From Clostridiaceae bacterium (GTDB taxonomy: Bacteria > Bacillota > Clostridia > Lachnospirales > Lachnospiraceae), in contig CAJSZV010000011.1 in assembly GCA_910574345.1 (NCBI GenBank), positions 124,001 to 188,000 of the forward strand: a stretch of 64,000 nucleotides of DNA, read 5' to 3'. A program made the position numbers and the translations under genes. The notes under the pieces are model-generated. The model saw nothing but the letters and a program-made list of their open reading frames with translations, was not told where the DNA came from and did not search any database. Below, one piece after another: positions 15,915 to 33,244 of this stretch (positions are counted from its first letter, which is position 1; each line of letters starts with the position of its first letter).

Positions 15915-18900
15915 TCAATGAACAGCAGTCTTTTTAGCAAAATTCATAACGATCTGTGCAGCCTGGGCACGGTTGACCTGACTTTTCGCATCCAGTGTCC
16001 CATTGTCAAAACCATTGACTATACCATGTTTCACCGCCCAGCCCATGGCCTTCTCTGCATCATTTAACTGGCTCATATCCCCATAATCAGACAAAGCCGT
16101 CACAGGCGAACCCTGATATTTCCAGAGCATGGTCACCAACTGCTCACAAGTAATCCTGCTGTCTGGGGCAGCCCCGTCTCTCATGCCATGCACAGCAGCC
16201 CACTCCATACTTTTCTCATACCAGACTGCGCCGCCCTCAGTCTGCGCTCCGTCAAAACGGGCCAGAGCCGTCACCGCCGCAGCATAGGTCATAGGCACCT
16301 CAGGCCCAAAGACAGTGTCCGTTGTCCCATAGAACAAATCCCTGGCAGACACAAAAGACACGGCATCCCCAAACCAGACCCCGGCAGGAACATCCGAAAA
16401 GCTCTTGCTGTTATCCACGATTTTAACCGTAGCCCCATTAGGCAGAAATGCCACAAGACAATTGTCCGTTGGAACAGAGCCTTGAATTACCCTCTCAGGT
16501 CCATCCTCATTGACCATCACCGCCACAGTACCAGGAGTAGGCCAAACCACAGGAATCCCAACCCTTACCGGCTCATCCCTTTGGGTATAGACCTTAATCG
16601 CCGGCGCTGCAGAGATATCCCCCGCCGCCCGAACCGCCGAAACAGGCAGCATAACAGCCCTGCCACTCTGTTGAGCAGTATTCACCGCTGCCACCGATAA
16701 TTTGGCCTCAATCCTTGTCTTGTCAGCAGCATCCGTTGTAGTGGTAACCACCGTTCCGTCCTTCTGTGTCTTGGTGATGATGCGGGAACCGTCCGACTCC
16801 CATCTGACAGAAGTGAAAACCGTAGAATTATCAACCCCATCCCCTCTGCCAAATCCAACCGATTCATCCGCCCCGTCCCCGGAGTTATCCCAGTAGTCGT
16901 CAGAAGAACTGTCCGTTGATGAGTCGTCACTGCCGCCGGAGCCGTCCGGCTCCTTTCCGTCATCAGGGTCATTCTTATCATCTCCGCTCCCGTCACCAGG
17001 CTCCGGGTTGTCAGTCCCCATAACCGCCCCGCAAATATCACACCTGCCGTCCTTGTCCTCATCCACATGGTTCGTGCAGGGTTCATTCTCTCCAGGCTGA
17101 AAATCCCCCGGATCATCCGGATCCGCGGCAAAGGGATCATCAAAAACAGCATCATACTCAATCTTCGTATTTTTCAGCGTAGCCGTCAAAGTCGGCGACA
17201 CCATGCTCTTCCACTCCGCCTCACTGCCCCCATAATAGATCACTCTTAAGCCGTTACAGGATGTAAAGGCGAAATCATCTATATCCCGGACACTTGACGG
17301 AATATACAGTGACGGAAGACTCCCGCAGGATTGGAACATACCGCCGGTAATGCGGTCCGCCGTCTGAGGCAGTATGACATGCGTCAAGCTCCAACACTGT
17401 GAAAATAAATTGTCGCCCATAGCCACTGTTCCCTCACCCGGCTTAAACCTCACACTGACCATATCCATACAGCTCATAAAAGCCGCCGTACCCACGGACC
17501 GGATACTTGACGGAAAATCAATATGAGTCAACGAGGTGCACCCTTGGAACGCATTTTCCCCAATGACAGTCACCCCTTCTGAAACCGTAACAGAAGTCAA
17601 GCTTCCACACTTAAAGAACGCACTGTCCCCAATGGTCCCGACAGTGCCAGGAATAGTCACTGACACCAGCCCGGATTCACTGAAAGCATTCTGTCCTATA
17701 GACTTCACGCTGTCAGAGATATACACACTGAGAGCCTTACTGCCATGAAAAGCATAGCTCCCTATGCCGGTAACCCCATCCTCAATGACAACCGTATAAA
17801 AATCATAGGCACTCCAGGGCGAATTACCCGATGAGTAGTCAGGAATCACGCCGTTTCCGGAGATCGTCAGCACCCCTCCATTGGTCAGAGACCATTCCAA
17901 GTCCCCTGCCTCTCCCCCGTCAACCACAACATCCGCCTCAGAATCATCAACCGGAACATAATCTTTGGGATAACGCGTAATAATAAAATCCGCATTCTCA
18001 ACTGCCGATGCGCTCATTGCACGCCCCCAATGGACAGTCTTTTTATAATTCGCCTCAGCCACGATCACACCCCCCGCACTCTTTTGGAGCACGATCACGC
18101 TGTGACTATTGCTCTGCACCCGCAGTATATCACCTACTTTTACATCCTCAAATGTAAACCTTCCCCGTTCAATGGGCCTTGCAGGCAGATTGCCAAAGAC
18201 ATGGTCACTGAGGATAAACGCAAAGGCCATACAGCCCACGGCACTCTTTGCCCCGTAGACAGCCCCGCCATTCCAGGTATAAGCACTGCCAAGACTGCCA
18301 TTGCTTCCATAGGGCTCAAAATTCGTCCATGGCATGCCCTCCGGATACTCATCCTGTAAAGCAGTCATGATCTCATAAGCTTCCTGATAAGTCGGAATAT
18401 CCCCTTGCGCCACTACGGCAATACGGTTCTTTTCCCTGTAACCGCAGTCAGTACATACGCCCCCATCATCATAGCTATGCTCTCCATATCCATCCTTCTC
18501 GCTGTCAGCAGACACAGGGCATTCCTCAGCGCCGCACTCGTGCCAGTGATAAGTCTCGTCATAGACCCAATCCCCAGACCAGTCATGCTCGTGAACGCCA
18601 GGTATGGGTTCTACAGGAGGTTTCACCGCCGGAAGGCCAGGAACCACAGACGATTCATTCTTTGAAGCTTCGGGCAAATCATTGTCCTTCCTTCCCTCTT
18701 CAGTCTCCTCTTTCGATTCCTCTACGGTCTCCTCATCAGCTCCCTCTTCCGATTCTTCCCTGGTCTCCTCCTCAGCTCCCTCTTCCGATTCTTCCCTGGT
18801 CTCTTCCTCAGTTCCCTCTTCTGATTCCTCCCTGGTCTCCTCCTCAGTTCTTTCTTCCGATTCCTCCCTGGTCTCCTCCTCAGTTCCTTCTTCCGATTCC

Positions 18901-19229
18901 TTCCTGGTCTCTTCCTCAGACTCCTCTTTGGTCTCCCCCTTGGTTCCTTCGCCGGTTTCTTTCTTGTCTTCCTCTTCCGTTCCCTCTTCGGCTTCCCCCT
19001 CGGTTTTCCCTTGGACCTTCGATTCAGTCACTGTTTGCGTTCCCTTCTCAGATTCCTCCTCGCTCTTCTCCATAGTCATAACGAGCATTGGCTCCGATTC
19101 GGCGTCCACCATTACAGTGGGCTTGGCAGCTCCCTCCGCTGGTTCGGCCCCCTCTGCCATTCCCACAGCAGAAAACAACATGGCCAAAGTCACCACCATT
19201 GAAAGTGCCTGTTTTGGTTTCCGTTTCAA
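15915..19229 (-). CDS. Giant surface protein: Glu-rich repeats, cysteine-peptidase-like domain, BspA leucine-rich repeats, SLH domains
   Basis: 1104-aa exported protein. Order: signal peptide (1-27); low-complexity Glu/Thr/Ser repeats (about 55-180); a Cys/His cluster (about 212-265, HWHECG and VCTDCGY); a domain at about 278-425 with a possible catalytic Cys333 (SAVGCMAFAF) and His376 (SNSHSVIV), resembling CHAP/NlpC-type peptidases; BspA-type leucine-rich repeats (about 448-695); a CTNH-CDICG motif (718-733); an Asp/Ser linker; and SLH-type repeats (about 941-1100: FSDVPAGVWFGDAV, MEWAAVHGM, MGWAVKHGIVNGF). It starts at TTG 19229, with AGGAGG 10 nt before. The SLH part should attach it to the cell wall; the middle domains may act in adhesion and peptidoglycan or peptide cleavage. 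The peptidase call is an inference. Confidence 0.82.
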   Translation of the reverse strand: MKRKPKQALSMVVTLAMLFSAVGMAEGAEPAEGAAKPTVMVDAESEPMLVMTMEKSEEESEKGTQTVTESKVQGKTEGEAEEGTEEEDKKETGEGTKGETKEESEEETRKESEEGTEEETREESEERTEEETREESEEGTEEETREESEEGAEEETREESEEGADEETVEESKEETEEGRKDNDLPEASKNESSVVPGLPAVKPPVEPIPGVHEHDWSGDWVYDETYHWHECGAEECPVSADSEKDGYGEHSYDDGGVCTDCGYREKNRIAVVAQGDIPTYQEAYEIMTALQDEYPEGMPWTNFEPYGSNGSLGSAYTWNGGAVYGAKSAVGCMAFAFILSDHVFGNLPARPIERGRFTFEDVKVGDILRVQSNSHSVIVLQKSAGGVIVAEANYKKTVHWGRAMSASAVENADFIITRYPKDYVPVDDSEADVVVDGGEAGDLEWSLTNGGVLTISGNGVIPDYSSGNSPWSAYDFYTVVIEDGVTGIGSYAFHGSKALSVYISDSVKSIGQNAFSESGLVSVTIPGTVGTIGDSAFFKCGSLTSVTVSEGVTVIGENAFQGCTSLTHIDFPSSIRSVGTAAFMSCMDMVSVRFKPGEGTVAMGDNLFSQCWSLTHVILPQTADRITGGMFQSCGSLPSLYIPSSVRDIDDFAFTSCNGLRVIYYGGSEAEWKSMVSPTLTATLKNTKIEYDAVFDDPFAADPDDPGDFQPGENEPCTNHVDEDKDGRCDICGAVMGTDNPEPGDGSGDDKNDPDDGKEPDGSGGSDDSSTDSSSDDYWDNSGDGADESVGFGRGDGVDNSTVFTSVRWESDGSRIITKTQKDGTVVTTTTDAADKTRIEAKLSVAAVNTAQQSGRAVMLPVSAVRAAGDISAAPAIKVYTQRDEPVRVGIPVVWPTPGTVAVMVNEDGPERVIQGSVPTDNCLVAFLPNGATVKIVDNSKSFSDVPAGVWFGDAVSFVSARDLFYGTTDTVFGPEVPMTYAAAVTALARFDGAQTEGGAVWYEKSMEWAAVHGMRDGAAPDSRITCEQLVTMLWKYQGSPVTALSDYGDMSQLNDAEKAMGWAVKHGIVNGFDNGTLDAKSQVNRAQAAQIVMNFAKKTAVH
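18726..18905 (-). repeat. 36-bp coding tandem repeat (12-residue Glu-rich unit)
   Basis: About five in-frame copies of a 36-bp unit encode REESEEGTEEET with small changes (residues about 109-168 of the surface protein). Because 36 is a multiple of three, gain or loss of units would change the stalk length without breaking the frame. Confidence 0.85.
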
Positions 19230-28601: not shown

Positions 28602-30005
28602 TTAGGGCTGGTTCACAATTCCCGCAAACAAAGGCATACCCGAATCACTGGTAATCACAAAAATAAAGGGCCGGTCCAGCACAAAATCCATCTCTTCCTC
28701 CGGCGGCATGGCTGCACCTGCAGCTGCCATTACCGTATAGGCTGCCGCTATGCACCCCTCCTCATCCACCATAACCCGGGCGGCATGGCTGGCCTGAGAG
28801 ACGAAAATCCCGTCTTCCTGTTCCGTCAATGGGGTAAAATCCGACTTGTCCGGGTCAAATACATCGGTGATCCCCAATTTCTTTAAGCCGTTTATTAAAT
28901 TGAGATTGGATACCACATCAAACTTAGGCATTGCCAGATTCACAACCAGGCGTTTCTGATTCTCCCACTTATCCCCGGTCAAGTAACCGGACAAAATCAA
29001 TTCCATAACCTGGTCTTCCAAAAGCACTTCCTCAGGCGCTACTCCCGGATCCGGCAGAATCAGCCACATGCCCCCGCTTTCCTCAAAACCTTTATGGACA
29101 GCCCCGAATTTTTCACCCCAATAGTAAGTGCTGGTTCCGCCCTGGTGCATGAAATCCCAGGCGATATCGCCATGACTGCCATGGAATGTCTCTTCCCTTG
29201 TATTGGCCTCCATGAATTCGCCTGACCACTTGGCCCGGTAATAAATGGTGGAAGCCAGCGCCATCAACGTATTGTCATCCATGTGGATTCCCGAAGCCTG
29301 TTCTTTTAAAAGCCCGTCGGTCTGCTCGTTAAGCCACCCCTTAAGCCTCTCGTCCAACTCCTGCGACCCCATTTTCCCCCAATAGGAAGAAGCATAATGG
29401 TGCTGCGCCAAAGCATCCAAAGTCTCCTTTTTAAATTCAATCCCTTCATCCAGCCACAGAGAATTGGCCAATATGCTGGTCACCGCCCCGTCACTGCTGT
29501 AATTGGCATTCCACACTTGTTCTGCCTGGGTACGCAGGCTCTCCAAAGATTCCGATCCCAAAAGGGTGAGTATCTGCTGCCTGCTGTCTCCTTCCACAGT
29601 CTCGGCCAGCATGGTGAGAGCCATATACACATTGACCGGTGAATAGATTCTGTTCTCCCCTTCCTGCCCCGGTACTTCCTCTGTCAAAAACTGACGGATG
29701 GATGAAGCAAAAAATGGCTCTAAGCTCTCCATACATCCCTCCGGCAGACTTCTCCTGCTCCTTTTTTCCTCCCACCAGACATCAAATACTTCGGAGAATC
29801 CGTCACTGTCAAACTCTCCCGTCTTTTTATCGATATAGTCCTCCTCATTGGGATAGGGCGGCATGTCGGGATAGACCGCTTTTACCACTCCCGCCTTTGT
29901 CCCGGAATTGTCTGCTGGGGATACACTGCCCTTTTCCTCCGTTTTACAGCCAGATGCAGCGACAGCCAACAGAAGCACCACACTTAATCTTATTATTTTT
30001 TTCAT
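28602..30005 (-). CDS. Serpin-family protease inhibitor lipoprotein
   Basis: 467 aa. Lipoprotein signal with lipobox AASGC (Cys near residue 20). The serpin fold covers about residues 95-467: RIYSPVNVYMALTMLAETVEGDS, NSLWLDEGIEFKK, LVVNLAMPKFDV, then VSQASHAARVMVDEEGCIAAAYTVMAAAG (breach, hinge and reactive-centre loop) and the FVLDRPFIFVI end. The Ala-rich hinge indicates an inhibitory serpin; the loop PEEEM follows AAMP. The start at 30005 is 6 nt after AAGGAGG; an upstream in-frame ATG lies before that site. It should sit on the outer face of the membrane and inactivate serine or cysteine proteases, of host or self. Confidence 0.92.
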   Translation of the reverse strand: MKKIIRLSVVLLLAVAASGCKTEEKGSVSPADNSGTKAGVVKAVYPDMPPYPNEEDYIDKKTGEFDSDGFSEVFDVWWEEKRSRRSLPEGCMESLEPFFASSIRQFLTEEVPGQEGENRIYSPVNVYMALTMLAETVEGDSRQQILTLLGSESLESLRTQAEQVWNANYSSDGAVTSILANSLWLDEGIEFKKETLDALAQHHYASSYWGKMGSQELDERLKGWLNEQTDGLLKEQASGIHMDDNTLMALASTIYYRAKWSGEFMEANTREETFHGSHGDIAWDFMHQGGTSTYYWGEKFGAVHKGFEESGGMWLILPDPGVAPEEVLLEDQVMELILSGYLTGDKWENQKRLVVNLAMPKFDVVSNLNLINGLKKLGITDVFDPDKSDFTPLTEQEDGIFVSQASHAARVMVDEEGCIAAAYTVMAAAGAAMPPEEEMDFVLDRPFIFVITSDSGMPLFAGIVNQP

Positions 30006-30118
30006 AGATAGCCTCCTTCTTATATCTCTCATATCATCATATCATATCTGTACAGAGGAGTCTTTTAAACTTACATTACAATAACCAAAACTTTCGTAAA
30101 GTCATTCCGCAGTGCACA

Positions 30119-30161
30119 AAAACCGGAAATTTCCTGTGTAAAATCAGAAATTTCCGGTTTT
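30119..30161 (-). terminator. Intrinsic terminator after the sce7726-like gene
   Basis: Perfect 15-bp stem, arms 30119-30133 and 30147-30161, with a 13-nt loop. On the minus strand it ends in GGTTTTTG. The stem touches the stop codon (30161-30163) of the gene it follows. Confidence 0.8.
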
Positions 30162-30748
30162 CAAATGGCTATGGTGGTGTAATCCCTCTCGAACAGCTCC
30201 TGGCTGATCTGCTCGTGAAGAAGACTTTCAGGAACCTTCAAAAGGATCTTGTCTATGACAAAAAGCTTGCTCATCTTTCTGTATCCAGGCATTTGATTCA
30301 GCTTCTGGATATGTGCCAGCTCCCGTCTCCACAAAAGACTTAACTTGGCCCTGAGATGCCTGTTAGGATTGGGAGCAGCCTCCCGAAGTACATAGAAATC
30401 CACTCTGCTGCCGTCCTCCTCCACAGTGATAATTCCCCACCATTCTGGTACATGTTCCCAGATGTGCGCCCCATGGCTTGACCCTGCCACTACATAATTA
30501 TAATCAAAGTACCGGTCGTAATCCTTTGTCTGTCTCTTCAGTCTGGCATAGGTATCCGCATCGCTTTTGATCTCAATTCCCCATATGCTAAAAGGGCGAA
30601 CCATCATCACGTCCGCCCTGGATCTGCCCACTCGTTTTTCTTCTATAATGCGTATCTTTCCATAGCGCTCTTCCAAAAAGTCAAACAGGGGCTCCCTGAT
30701 GTCTTTATCATACAGCATCTTTTTGTCTCTGTCTCCTGTCTCAAACAT
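30161..30748 (-). CDS. sce7726-family / PD-(D/E)XK nuclease-like protein
   Basis: 195 aa. The restriction-type core is visible: RSRADVMMV with D46, then WGIEIKSDADTYARLKRQ with E59 and K61, a D-ExK arrangement, followed by YDRYFDYNYVV as in sce7726 proteins. The C-terminal half is helical. ATG 30748 lies 3 nt after the stop of the zinc-ribbon gene, so they form a tight pair. The family is linked to mobile or defence contexts but is not characterised. Confidence 0.75.
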   Translation of the reverse strand: MFETGDRDKKMLYDKDIREPLFDFLEERYGKIRIIEEKRVGRSRADVMMVRPFSIWGIEIKSDADTYARLKRQTKDYDRYFDYNYVVAGSSHGAHIWEHVPEWWGIITVEEDGSRVDFYVLREAAPNPNRHLRAKLSLLWRRELAHIQKLNQMPGYRKMSKLFVIDKILLKVPESLLHEQISQELFERDYTTIAI

Positions 30749-30751
30749 ATA

Positions 30752-31129
30752 TCAATCCCAATGACCTGTCTCCTGTTCATTCAGCTCGTCTCTTTCACAG
30801 GCCGGACAGACAATCCGGGAATCCTCATCCAAAAGTTCCACCTCACCGCCGCACACAGGACAGGCACCTATGTAAGACCTCCCGCTTTCCATGAGATGAA
30901 GCACAGGCACAGCCTCCACACTCCGGCACTTCCTGCACAGGGCAGTTCTGTAGTTAAAATGAAACAGGGACAACTGCTCCGTATTCACATCTGCCGCGAT
31001 TTCCCTTTGAATGTCCTCGGAAAACACTTCCATAACCCGTCCCAGGACACCATGCCTCATGCCATGGCCCAGACGGAGCTGCCATTCTTTCTGACAGGAA
31101 GGACATGTCAGCCGCCGAATCACTCCCAT
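30752..31129 (-). CDS. CpXC/zinc-ribbon protein
   Basis: 125 aa with four CxxC pairs: LTCPSC (about 8-12), LCRKC (about 65-69), ACPVCGG (about 89-95) and VCPAC (about 108-112), enough for two zinc ribbons. The first half resembles the CpXC domain. The start at 31129 has AAGGAG 7 nt before; a longer frame upstream is rejected. It is tightly followed by the sce7726-like gene and may be its partner. Function unknown. Confidence 0.75.
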   Translation of the reverse strand: MGVIRRLTCPSCQKEWQLRLGHGMRHGVLGRVMEVFSEDIQREIAADVNTEQLSLFHFNYRTALCRKCRSVEAVPVLHLMESGRSYIGACPVCGGEVELLDEDSRIVCPACERDELNEQETGHWD

Positions 31130-31283
31130 ATCCGCTCTCCTTCTTTCTTCGCTGCTGTTCACAGGGCATCTTCTTATCCGGCTCCGCCGGCCAAAAACCA
31201 TCCTGCCTCCGCCCTATATGGAAAAATGGATAAAATCAGTCTTATGAACAAGCCTGACGCGCCCCATGACAGTAACCATTTTT

Positions 31284-33125
31284 CTATGATCCAAGGAGAC
31301 TGAGTATGTTCTCAGGCACATGATTGGCCTGAGCCAGCATAGACTGCCCGCTTTGGAACAAAATCTGATTGCGCACATGCTCCGTAACGGCAAAAGCCAT
31401 ATCCGTATCCCGGATACGGGATTCCGAAGCCGTCAGGTTCTCCACCGTGTTGCTCAGATTCGCATAAGTATGCTCCAGACGGTTCTGAATAGCTCCATAG
31501 TGGCTGCGCATACTGCTGACCCGGTTAATGGCGCTGTCTATCTTATCCACACCGCTGTTGGCATCATCCAAAGTGAGAATATTGGTGCTGCCAAGCCCCA
31601 GACCGACATCGTCAAGACGGAACAGATTCACGTCAATGAATTGGTCGTGGCCTCCGGCCGATATGGAGATCTTACCGGTGGCTCCCACTCTCCAGCTTTT
31701 TATAGAAAAGGGAGCACTGGAAGCTGAATTCCCAATAATGGAACTTCCGCCTTTGTTCAGGCCTCCGGCAACAATGGAGCCGGCTCCGCCTTTGGACTCA
31801 ACGGAAAGCTGACGGACAAAACCAGTCAAAGCCCCATCCGGATGATCAAACATGGCCTCTATGTCCGCCATACTGGTGACCTTTCCTCCAGTATGTCTAC
31901 TCAAGACCGAATATAACGACTTGTCGGTTTGAAGATCATTAAAAATCTTATTCATACCATCGGCAATTCTCTCACCCAAGTCTGTTTTGGTCGAATCACC
32001 CGCTAAGTATCCCACATAAGCCGCTGCCAGATAACCATGCCCGTAAGGACGGTCTTTCACGTTATAAGCTTTCAAATAATTTTCAATAGCGCCGTCCTTA
32101 GAGCCGTCGTTAACATCAGTCAGCTGATTGGCGATTTGCTGCAGTCCCGAATTCCACCCTGTGGGAAATCCTCCTCCGGCAAGCTGCGCCGTGCCCTCAA
32201 CAAACCACTCAGGATATTTCTCAAAACCGTTTCTTCCGAACATCCCGTCTGTCAGAGTATACTGCATGACGGAATGCATCAGCTCATGAGCGATAGTAGA
32301 CTGCAAAGCCGCCTGATCCGGATGTCCGTCCTTGATGGATTCATCTGAAAAATCAGCGGCATCCACCGTAATCTGCATATTAAAGGGCCTGCCGTTGGAA
32401 CGGAAAGAAGCCTTTGCATAGGCCATCATGCCATATGGTCCGTCGACATACTCAATGCAGAGCTCCATGTCAACCTTTTCCGAACCCAAATTAGTTTTCA
32501 ATGCAGGAAATGCATCCAGGATCTGCGTTGCCGCATTGGGAATATATTCTGTAGCAATCTTTTCCGCCAGAAGATCATATCCTGTGCTTTCCGTGACTCC
32601 TTGGGCCGCCCGCCCCACGCTTCCTGAATAATTCACGCTTACATTCCCATTAGCCAGATCCAGGGTACAGCCGTAAAATGATGTCAGAGTTACATTCTTC
32701 TTGGTTCCGCCATTGCTGAAAAGAGGCACGCCGCTGAAAGTGGTAGATTCGCCGATACGGGTGATCTCCGCCTTCAATTCCTCCATCTCCGAATTCATCA
32801 TGGACCGCTGCAGTTCCGTGTACGTCCCATTGGAGGCCTGGACCGCCATTCCCTTCATGCGGTTAAGCATAGAATGCACCTCTGTCAAGGCTCCCTCCAC
32901 GGTCTGCACCAGACAGATCCCGTCCTGTGTATTCCTCTTTCCCTGATTCATGGAGGTAATCTGGGCACGCATCCCCTCCGATATAGCAAGTCCCGCCGCA
33001 TCGTCGCCGGCGCGGTTAATCCGGTAACCGGAACTGAGCTTTTCCAGATTCTTGGCCGTGGCCTGATCTGTGATAGAAATATTTCTCTGGGAATTGATGG
33101 CAGAAATATTATGCTGAATTCTCAT
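31284..33125 (-). CDS. Flagellinolysin: flagellin with inserted HExxH metallopeptidase domain
   Basis: 613 aa. The ends are normal flagellin: MRIQHNISAINSQRNIS with LSSGYRINRAGDDAAGLAISE (1-50) and NRLEHTYANLSNTVENLTASESRIRDTDMA with a C-terminal NILSLLGS (about 548-613). In place of the hypervariable surface domain is a gluzincin-type peptidase: H280-E-L-M-H284 in TIAHELMHSVMQ and probable third ligand E310 in WFVEGTAQ. This matches the known flagellinolysin family, in which the protease is displayed along the filament. The start at 33125 is set by GAGGTGAAG and the conserved MRIQHN; upstream codons are rejected. No other flagellar gene is in the window, and a sigma-28 promoter precedes it. 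Confidence 0.93.
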   Translation of the reverse strand: MRIQHNISAINSQRNISITDQATAKNLEKLSSGYRINRAGDDAAGLAISEGMRAQITSMNQGKRNTQDGICLVQTVEGALTEVHSMLNRMKGMAVQASNGTYTELQRSMMNSEMEELKAEITRIGESTTFSGVPLFSNGGTKKNVTLTSFYGCTLDLANGNVSVNYSGSVGRAAQGVTESTGYDLLAEKIATEYIPNAATQILDAFPALKTNLGSEKVDMELCIEYVDGPYGMMAYAKASFRSNGRPFNMQITVDAADFSDESIKDGHPDQAALQSTIAHELMHSVMQYTLTDGMFGRNGFEKYPEWFVEGTAQLAGGGFPTGWNSGLQQIANQLTDVNDGSKDGAIENYLKAYNVKDRPYGHGYLAAAYVGYLAGDSTKTDLGERIADGMNKIFNDLQTDKSLYSVLSRHTGGKVTSMADIEAMFDHPDGALTGFVRQLSVESKGGAGSIVAGGLNKGGSSIIGNSASSAPFSIKSWRVGATGKISISAGGHDQFIDVNLFRLDDVGLGLGSTNILTLDDANSGVDKIDSAINRVSSMRSHYGAIQNRLEHTYANLSNTVENLTASESRIRDTDMAFAVTEHVRNQILFQSGQSMLAQANHVPENILSLLGS

Positions 33126-33217: not shown

Positions 33218-33244
33218 ATATCGGCAGTTTCTTACGATTCTTAA
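33218..33244 (-). promoter_or_regulatory. Sigma-28 (SigD)-type promoter of the flagellinolysin gene
   Basis: On the minus strand GCCGATAT (33218-33225) matches the SigD -10 consensus exactly. It is preceded, at 15-bp spacing, by TTAA (33241-33244), one mismatch from TAAA. Transcription would start near 33211, giving an ~85-nt leader. Confidence 0.75.

Follow-up and report, generated by a model that had tools for sequence, protein, structure and literature searches.

A predicted flagellinolysin of a Lachnospiraceae bacterium and a conserved zinc-ribbon neighbor that tracks the flagellin-borne peptidase

How could a bacterium place a peptidase on its flagellar filament from a gene that stands apart from its other flagellar genes, and does anything accompany such a gene? 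The question is raised by a 64,000-nucleotide stretch of a Clostridiaceae bacterium (GCA_910574345.1, contig CAJSZV010000011.1, positions 124,001 to 188,000; the window, by which we mean the whole stretch of DNA that was analyzed), in which the gene at 31284..33125 of the minus strand encodes a flagellin with an internal peptidase domain. The protein comprises 613 amino acids from ATG, with the stop codon within these coordinates, and a longer GTG frame extends to 33203. Judged from its sequence, it is a flagellinolysin (M101), a family already known since 2017; this assignment follows from its architecture, its motif, and a full-length profile match, with weaker support from the predicted fold. 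The new part of the finding is a neighboring gene for a zinc-ribbon protein of ∼125 amino acids, a feature absent from an earlier reading made from the sequence alone (the sequence-only reading).

That reading had proposed a flagellinolysin in which normal flagellin ends flank a domain with HELMH and a likely zinc ligand at E310, and all of these elements were recovered. The flagellin N-terminal helical region spans residues 3-139 (32709..33119, minus strand; Pfam Flagellin_N, E 6e-38) and the C-terminal one residues 526-611 (31293..31550, minus strand; Flagellin_C, E 4e-27), with no Pfam match over cut-off between them. The gluzincin-type (M101) peptidase domain, for which we set approximate limits of residues 185-463 (31737..32573, minus strand), occupies a position where the two ordinary flagellins of the genome have almost nothing in an alignment of the three proteins; the ends are intact and closely like those of the two ordinary flagellins. 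The domain contains the HELMH zinc-binding and catalytic motif (residues 280-284; 32274..32288, minus strand) and, by its sequence position only, the likely third zinc ligand E310 (32196..32198, minus strand) in WFVEGTA, with A313 three residues later. H280, E281, H284, E310, and A313 were identical throughout 14 aligned flagellinolysins, and because the more distant members share 34-38% identity, the motif is not a product of chance. NCBIfam NF033876 (flagella_HExxH, flagellinolysin) was covered over profile positions 2-383 of 384 (E 1.4e-58). The score of 199.2 bits lies under the NCBI naming cut-off of 205, an annotation rule that we did not treat as a defining feature of flagellinolysin; two same-genus copies score 218 and 216 bits. 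D255 or D258 is a possible counterpart of the calcium-site Asp206 of FliA(H), in a region where the alignment is ambiguous and other Lachnospiraceae differ. Pfam gave six matches at E ≤ 1, none of them to the M9 family (bacterial collagenase).

The nearest named relatives of the genome are recorded mostly as Lachnospiraceae or Hungatella, with one as Clostridiaceae. As that reading had held, the gene lies outside any flagellar cluster: no flagellar protein was found among the 20 other window proteins scanned with Pfam, and the two ordinary flagellins, FlgK, FlhA, and FliA are all encoded on contig C2, the window being on C11. Yet a predicted sigma-28-type promoter would tie the gene to the flagellar regulon. 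The site, TAAG-N14-GCCGATAT (33218..33243, minus strand), is an exact match ∼90 nt upstream of the ATG and the sole exact match in the window; allowing one mismatch gave 4 matches versus 0.64 expected, for a pattern composed after the TAAG of the window had been seen. The general sigma-28 consensus in print is TAAA-N15-CCGATAT (PMC3720852). A related string, TTAAGAA-N12-GCCGATAT, had 10 matches with at most 2 mismatches across 18 stretches (566,570 bases, both strands), compared with 0.35 expected by resampling and at most 2 in 20 runs. Nine of the matches preceded flagellinolysin genes by no more than 300 nt; this count, 9 of 14 genus-type copies, is partly circular because the string was derived from the same upstream regions. 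The remaining match, which is independent, lay upstream of a CheA-like gene.

The zinc-ribbon partner gene (30752..31129, minus strand; 125 amino acids) is on the same strand as the flagellinolysin gene and begins 154 nt after its stop. This start was favored by alignment; a longer frame begins at 31201. Eight cysteines in CxxC pairs are conserved in 11 genus-type sequences, and the C-terminus reads GxWD in all 13 members of a wider set (GHWD in the window copy). No Pfam or NCBIfam match over cut-off was present among the matches listed, and those below cut-off were mostly zinc ribbons. The predicted structure was confident (pLDDT 89.2) and mainly beta, and no signal peptide was evident by eye. 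In the literature searched, which did not extend to supplements and most subscription journals, no zinc-ribbon neighbor of a flagellinolysin was found described.

Only this gene, of ten window neighbors, was recovered in the stretches of relatives, whose flanks vary and are in some cases short. Within the genus, any match to the flagellinolysin model was confined to 9 of 26 genomes, and in 5 of these the match covered the peptidase; exactly those 5 have the partner (Fisher 1.5e-5 for the 26 genomes, 0.008 among the 9). Plain searches of 299 sampled family genomes gave 10 with flagellinolysin and 13 with the partner, 7 of them common (p 5e-9). The partner match in G122 adjoins a flagellinolysin missed at first threshold, and ten other partner-positive genomes without a listed peptidase showed flagellin ends only, or nothing. 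One genome (G265) has flagellins and a partner-like gene at a contig edge, with no peptidase found, and is uninformative.

We collected 28 distinct flagellin-embedded copies in Lachnospiraceae, giving 27 informative loci; in 24 of these, the partner or a remnant directly adjoins the flagellinolysin gene on the same strand, downstream in 17 and upstream in 7. Two of the 24 are remnants (L044, where a deletion fuses both genes, and L035, with a short partner frame). The count leaves out L043, whose contig ends inside the gene, three entries on the same contig as L035 (G755, L133, L151), and six whose contigs, as matched by length, were already counted (G001, G003, G008, G024, G132, G307); the loci share history and so are not independent. 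In the 21 of the 24 loci where the distance between the genes was measured, it is 11 to 221 nt, and in 13 it does not exceed 31 nt. Seven copies came to light last, once the partner profile already existed, through the flagellinolysin model without any use of that profile; six of the seven have the partner. Distances among partners correlated with those among peptidases (Mantel r 0.94 for 13 loci, 0 of 5000 permutations; r 0.84 for 9 genus-type loci, 1 of 5000), as is expected because any two co-inherited genes would show such a correlation.

Four Lachnospiraceae proteins carry an M101-type domain and are not flagellins: one each in G117 (with a type I dockerin) and G719 (broken by an internal stop) and a further pair in G217 (L056 247-2409, L143 4320-6704, L149 4012-6147, and L150 3831-5981). 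By eye, all four start like Sec-secreted proteins. The partner was found in none of their stretches (3 kb for G117, 7-10 kb for the others). Because it is seen beside 24 of 27 flagellin-borne and 0 of 4 non-flagellin M101 forms (Fisher 0.001), the partner goes with the flagellin-borne form and not with the M101 domain as such. A tree of 32 domains, the second of two, placed those of Lachnospiraceae type on one side of a well-supported split (100/99), except the long-branched G300, and the three non-flagellin forms included lay among the partner-bearing Lachnospiraceae domains. On this tree, 4-5 changes are required to account for the partner label; G300 and G122 are on long branches, and their placement is unsure. 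Broken copies, L043, and G719 were left out of both trees, and the near-duplicates L036, L037, and L039 also from this one. The tree is unrooted, and the secreted M101 peptidases may be donors or escapees of the inserted domain, marking where it came from or went. A literature search found no paper joining dockerin with flagellin, metallopeptidase, and Lachnospiraceae. A 1255-residue flagellin-like frame (L095 1894-5661) directly follows the flagellinolysin of G300.

These results suggest the following scheme. The flagellinolysin would be a minor flagellin whose gene is transcribed from the sigma-28 promoter as part of the flagellar regulon. After export along the flagellar channel it would join a filament in which the two ordinary flagellins predominate; its surface-exposed insert would act as a zinc peptidase, so that the filament could cut peptides at its surface. 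Proteolytic filaments are a prediction, with activity, export, and location inferred from the gene. We hold with considerable confidence that the best overall explanation is such a sigma-28-driven, exported zinc-peptidase flagellin, with a partner serving the flagellin-borne form, and it is likely that the partner has some dedicated function. Flagellins are synthesized in the cytoplasm and pass out of the cell through the flagellar channel; because the partner tracks the form that takes this route, we favor, tentatively and at somewhat less than even confidence, a cytoplasmic export chaperone or inhibitor that would keep the peptidase unfolded or inert before export. More tentative again is the generalization that Lachnospiraceae flagellinolysins use a dedicated zinc-ribbon protein until export, whereas secreted M101 peptidases, leaving by a signal peptide, do without one.

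Several observations weigh against this explanation. Three flagellin-borne Lachnospiraceae copies lack the partner (G300, G302, G797), it was found in none of seven sampled genomes outside the family having a flagellinolysin-type match, and the four non-flagellin forms are a small number. Relatives of the partner exist without flagellinolysin, and uniqueness of the partner to flagellinolysins was therefore rejected; three such relatives ending in GxWD (L089, L090, L092) adjoin, by eye, a DAHP synthase-like gene and point to a wider undescribed family. In the assemblies, five of the 28 embedded copies (L035, L042, L044, L046, L052) are broken, with lesions that differ among them (in-frame stops, frameshifts, and a deletion); the partner gene is still open in L042, L046, and L052. 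Assembly error is a possible cause, L035, L044, and L046 being recorded as metagenome assemblies and L042 as a strain. The L043 copy is seen only in part, and the G718 copy has an odd C-terminus that perhaps reflects another lesion. The copy in the window is intact.

The zinc-ribbon gene could instead encode a regulator of transcription or translation of the flagellinolysin gene rather than a protein partner. Zinc ribbons are common in nucleic-acid-binding proteins, and the partner weakly resembles, among other sequences, zinc ribbons of RNA polymerase and ribosomal proteins (best E 0.007); the apparent promoter is, however, an ordinary sigma-28 site like that of the CheA-like gene, and the failure to find the gene beside secreted M101 forms fits a role in flagellin export at least as well. 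We regard a regulator as unlikely. Still less likely is a passenger gene, one carried along beside flagellinolysin without being functionally linked to it, although the existence of partner relatives elsewhere and simple co-inheritance of the two genes are compatible with that idea. A passenger would not readily account for constant strand and adjacency on either side of the gene in 24 loci, for the failure of the nine other tested window neighbors to appear in the relatives' stretches (of varying and sometimes short flanks), or for the gene not having been found beside any of the four non-flagellin forms.

With the partner most plausibly serving the flagellin-borne peptidase, two doubts concern the flagellinolysin itself. 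That the window gene is silent, or its product not built into filaments, could be argued from its separate contig and from the shared sigma-28 string, which was not found with ≤2 mismatches in 5 of 14 genus-type copies (one with only 232 nt upstream); the exact sigma-28-type site and the intact, ordinary-looking flagellin ends make this very improbable. An insert serving as a structural or adhesive surface domain without catalysis is equally improbable, despite the broken relatives and a copy outside Lachnospiraceae (G351b; L086 568-2469) that has HExxH but Ala at the expected third ligand position (YITAGAAE), given that the window copy retains every catalytic residue, that none of these residues varies in the alignment, and that dN/dS values of 0.07, 0.08, and 0.10 in three pairs of close relatives show purifying selection on the domain.

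Other genes surround the pair. An sce7726 family protein (NCBIfam NF033832, over cut-off) is encoded directly after the partner gene at 30161-30748, and a serpin gene (28602-30032; Pfam PF00079, E 5e-59) lies 0.7 kb beyond the partner gene. The serpin and the other window neighbors were set aside as functional partners, none having been found in the relatives' stretches, whose flanks vary. Farther away, 15915-19229 encodes a protein of 1104 amino acids with BspA-type leucine-rich repeats and an S-layer homology domain.

The locus extends predicted proteolytic filaments to gut-type Lachnospiraceae; literature searches on proteolytic flagellin in Lachnospiraceae and on flagellin metallopeptidase with zinc ribbon gave nothing related, as judged from the listings, and one on flagellin metallopeptidases in general found none beyond the two papers already known. 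To our knowledge, there is no described case of a protein that solves the export of a protease as a filament subunit. A conserved gene tied to the flagellin-borne form offers a handle on how a cell makes many protease copies in its own cytoplasm undamaged, a question not answered in the available text of the flagellinolysin papers (PMC5595980, PMC7643111). According to the 2017 paper, it is undetermined which protease gave rise to the insert (PMC5595980), and the four non-flagellin M101 proteins with signal-peptide-like starts, from the same bacterial family, are candidates to root its origin.

Among known systems, FliA(H) of Clostridium haemolyticum was shown to be active and present in filaments beside ordinary flagellin, and HExxH, the distal Glu, and a basement Ala were named as key residues (PMC5595980). 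The window protein resembles it in its flagellin ends, HExxH, distal Glu ligand, Ala three residues later, and insertion in the hypervariable region; the H to E spacing is 30 versus 29 in FliA(H) by that paper's numbering, and its available text mentions no zinc-ribbon neighbor (PMC5595980). HgrFlaMP of Hylemonella gracilis belongs to the same family, M101 in MEROPS, and its gene is also near non-flagellar genes (a NUDIX hydrolase, a MarR-type regulator, and others), with no zinc-ribbon partner mentioned in the available text (PMC7643111). The clostridial collagenase peptidase domain (M9B) differs in not being a flagellin, and the window protein had no match to it in the Pfam or PDB profile search. 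FliS, the general flagellin export chaperone, is a helical bundle. The proposed partner would play a comparable part, as a small cytoplasmic protein serving flagellin export, but differs in having eight cysteines, a zinc ribbon, and a mainly beta predicted structure.
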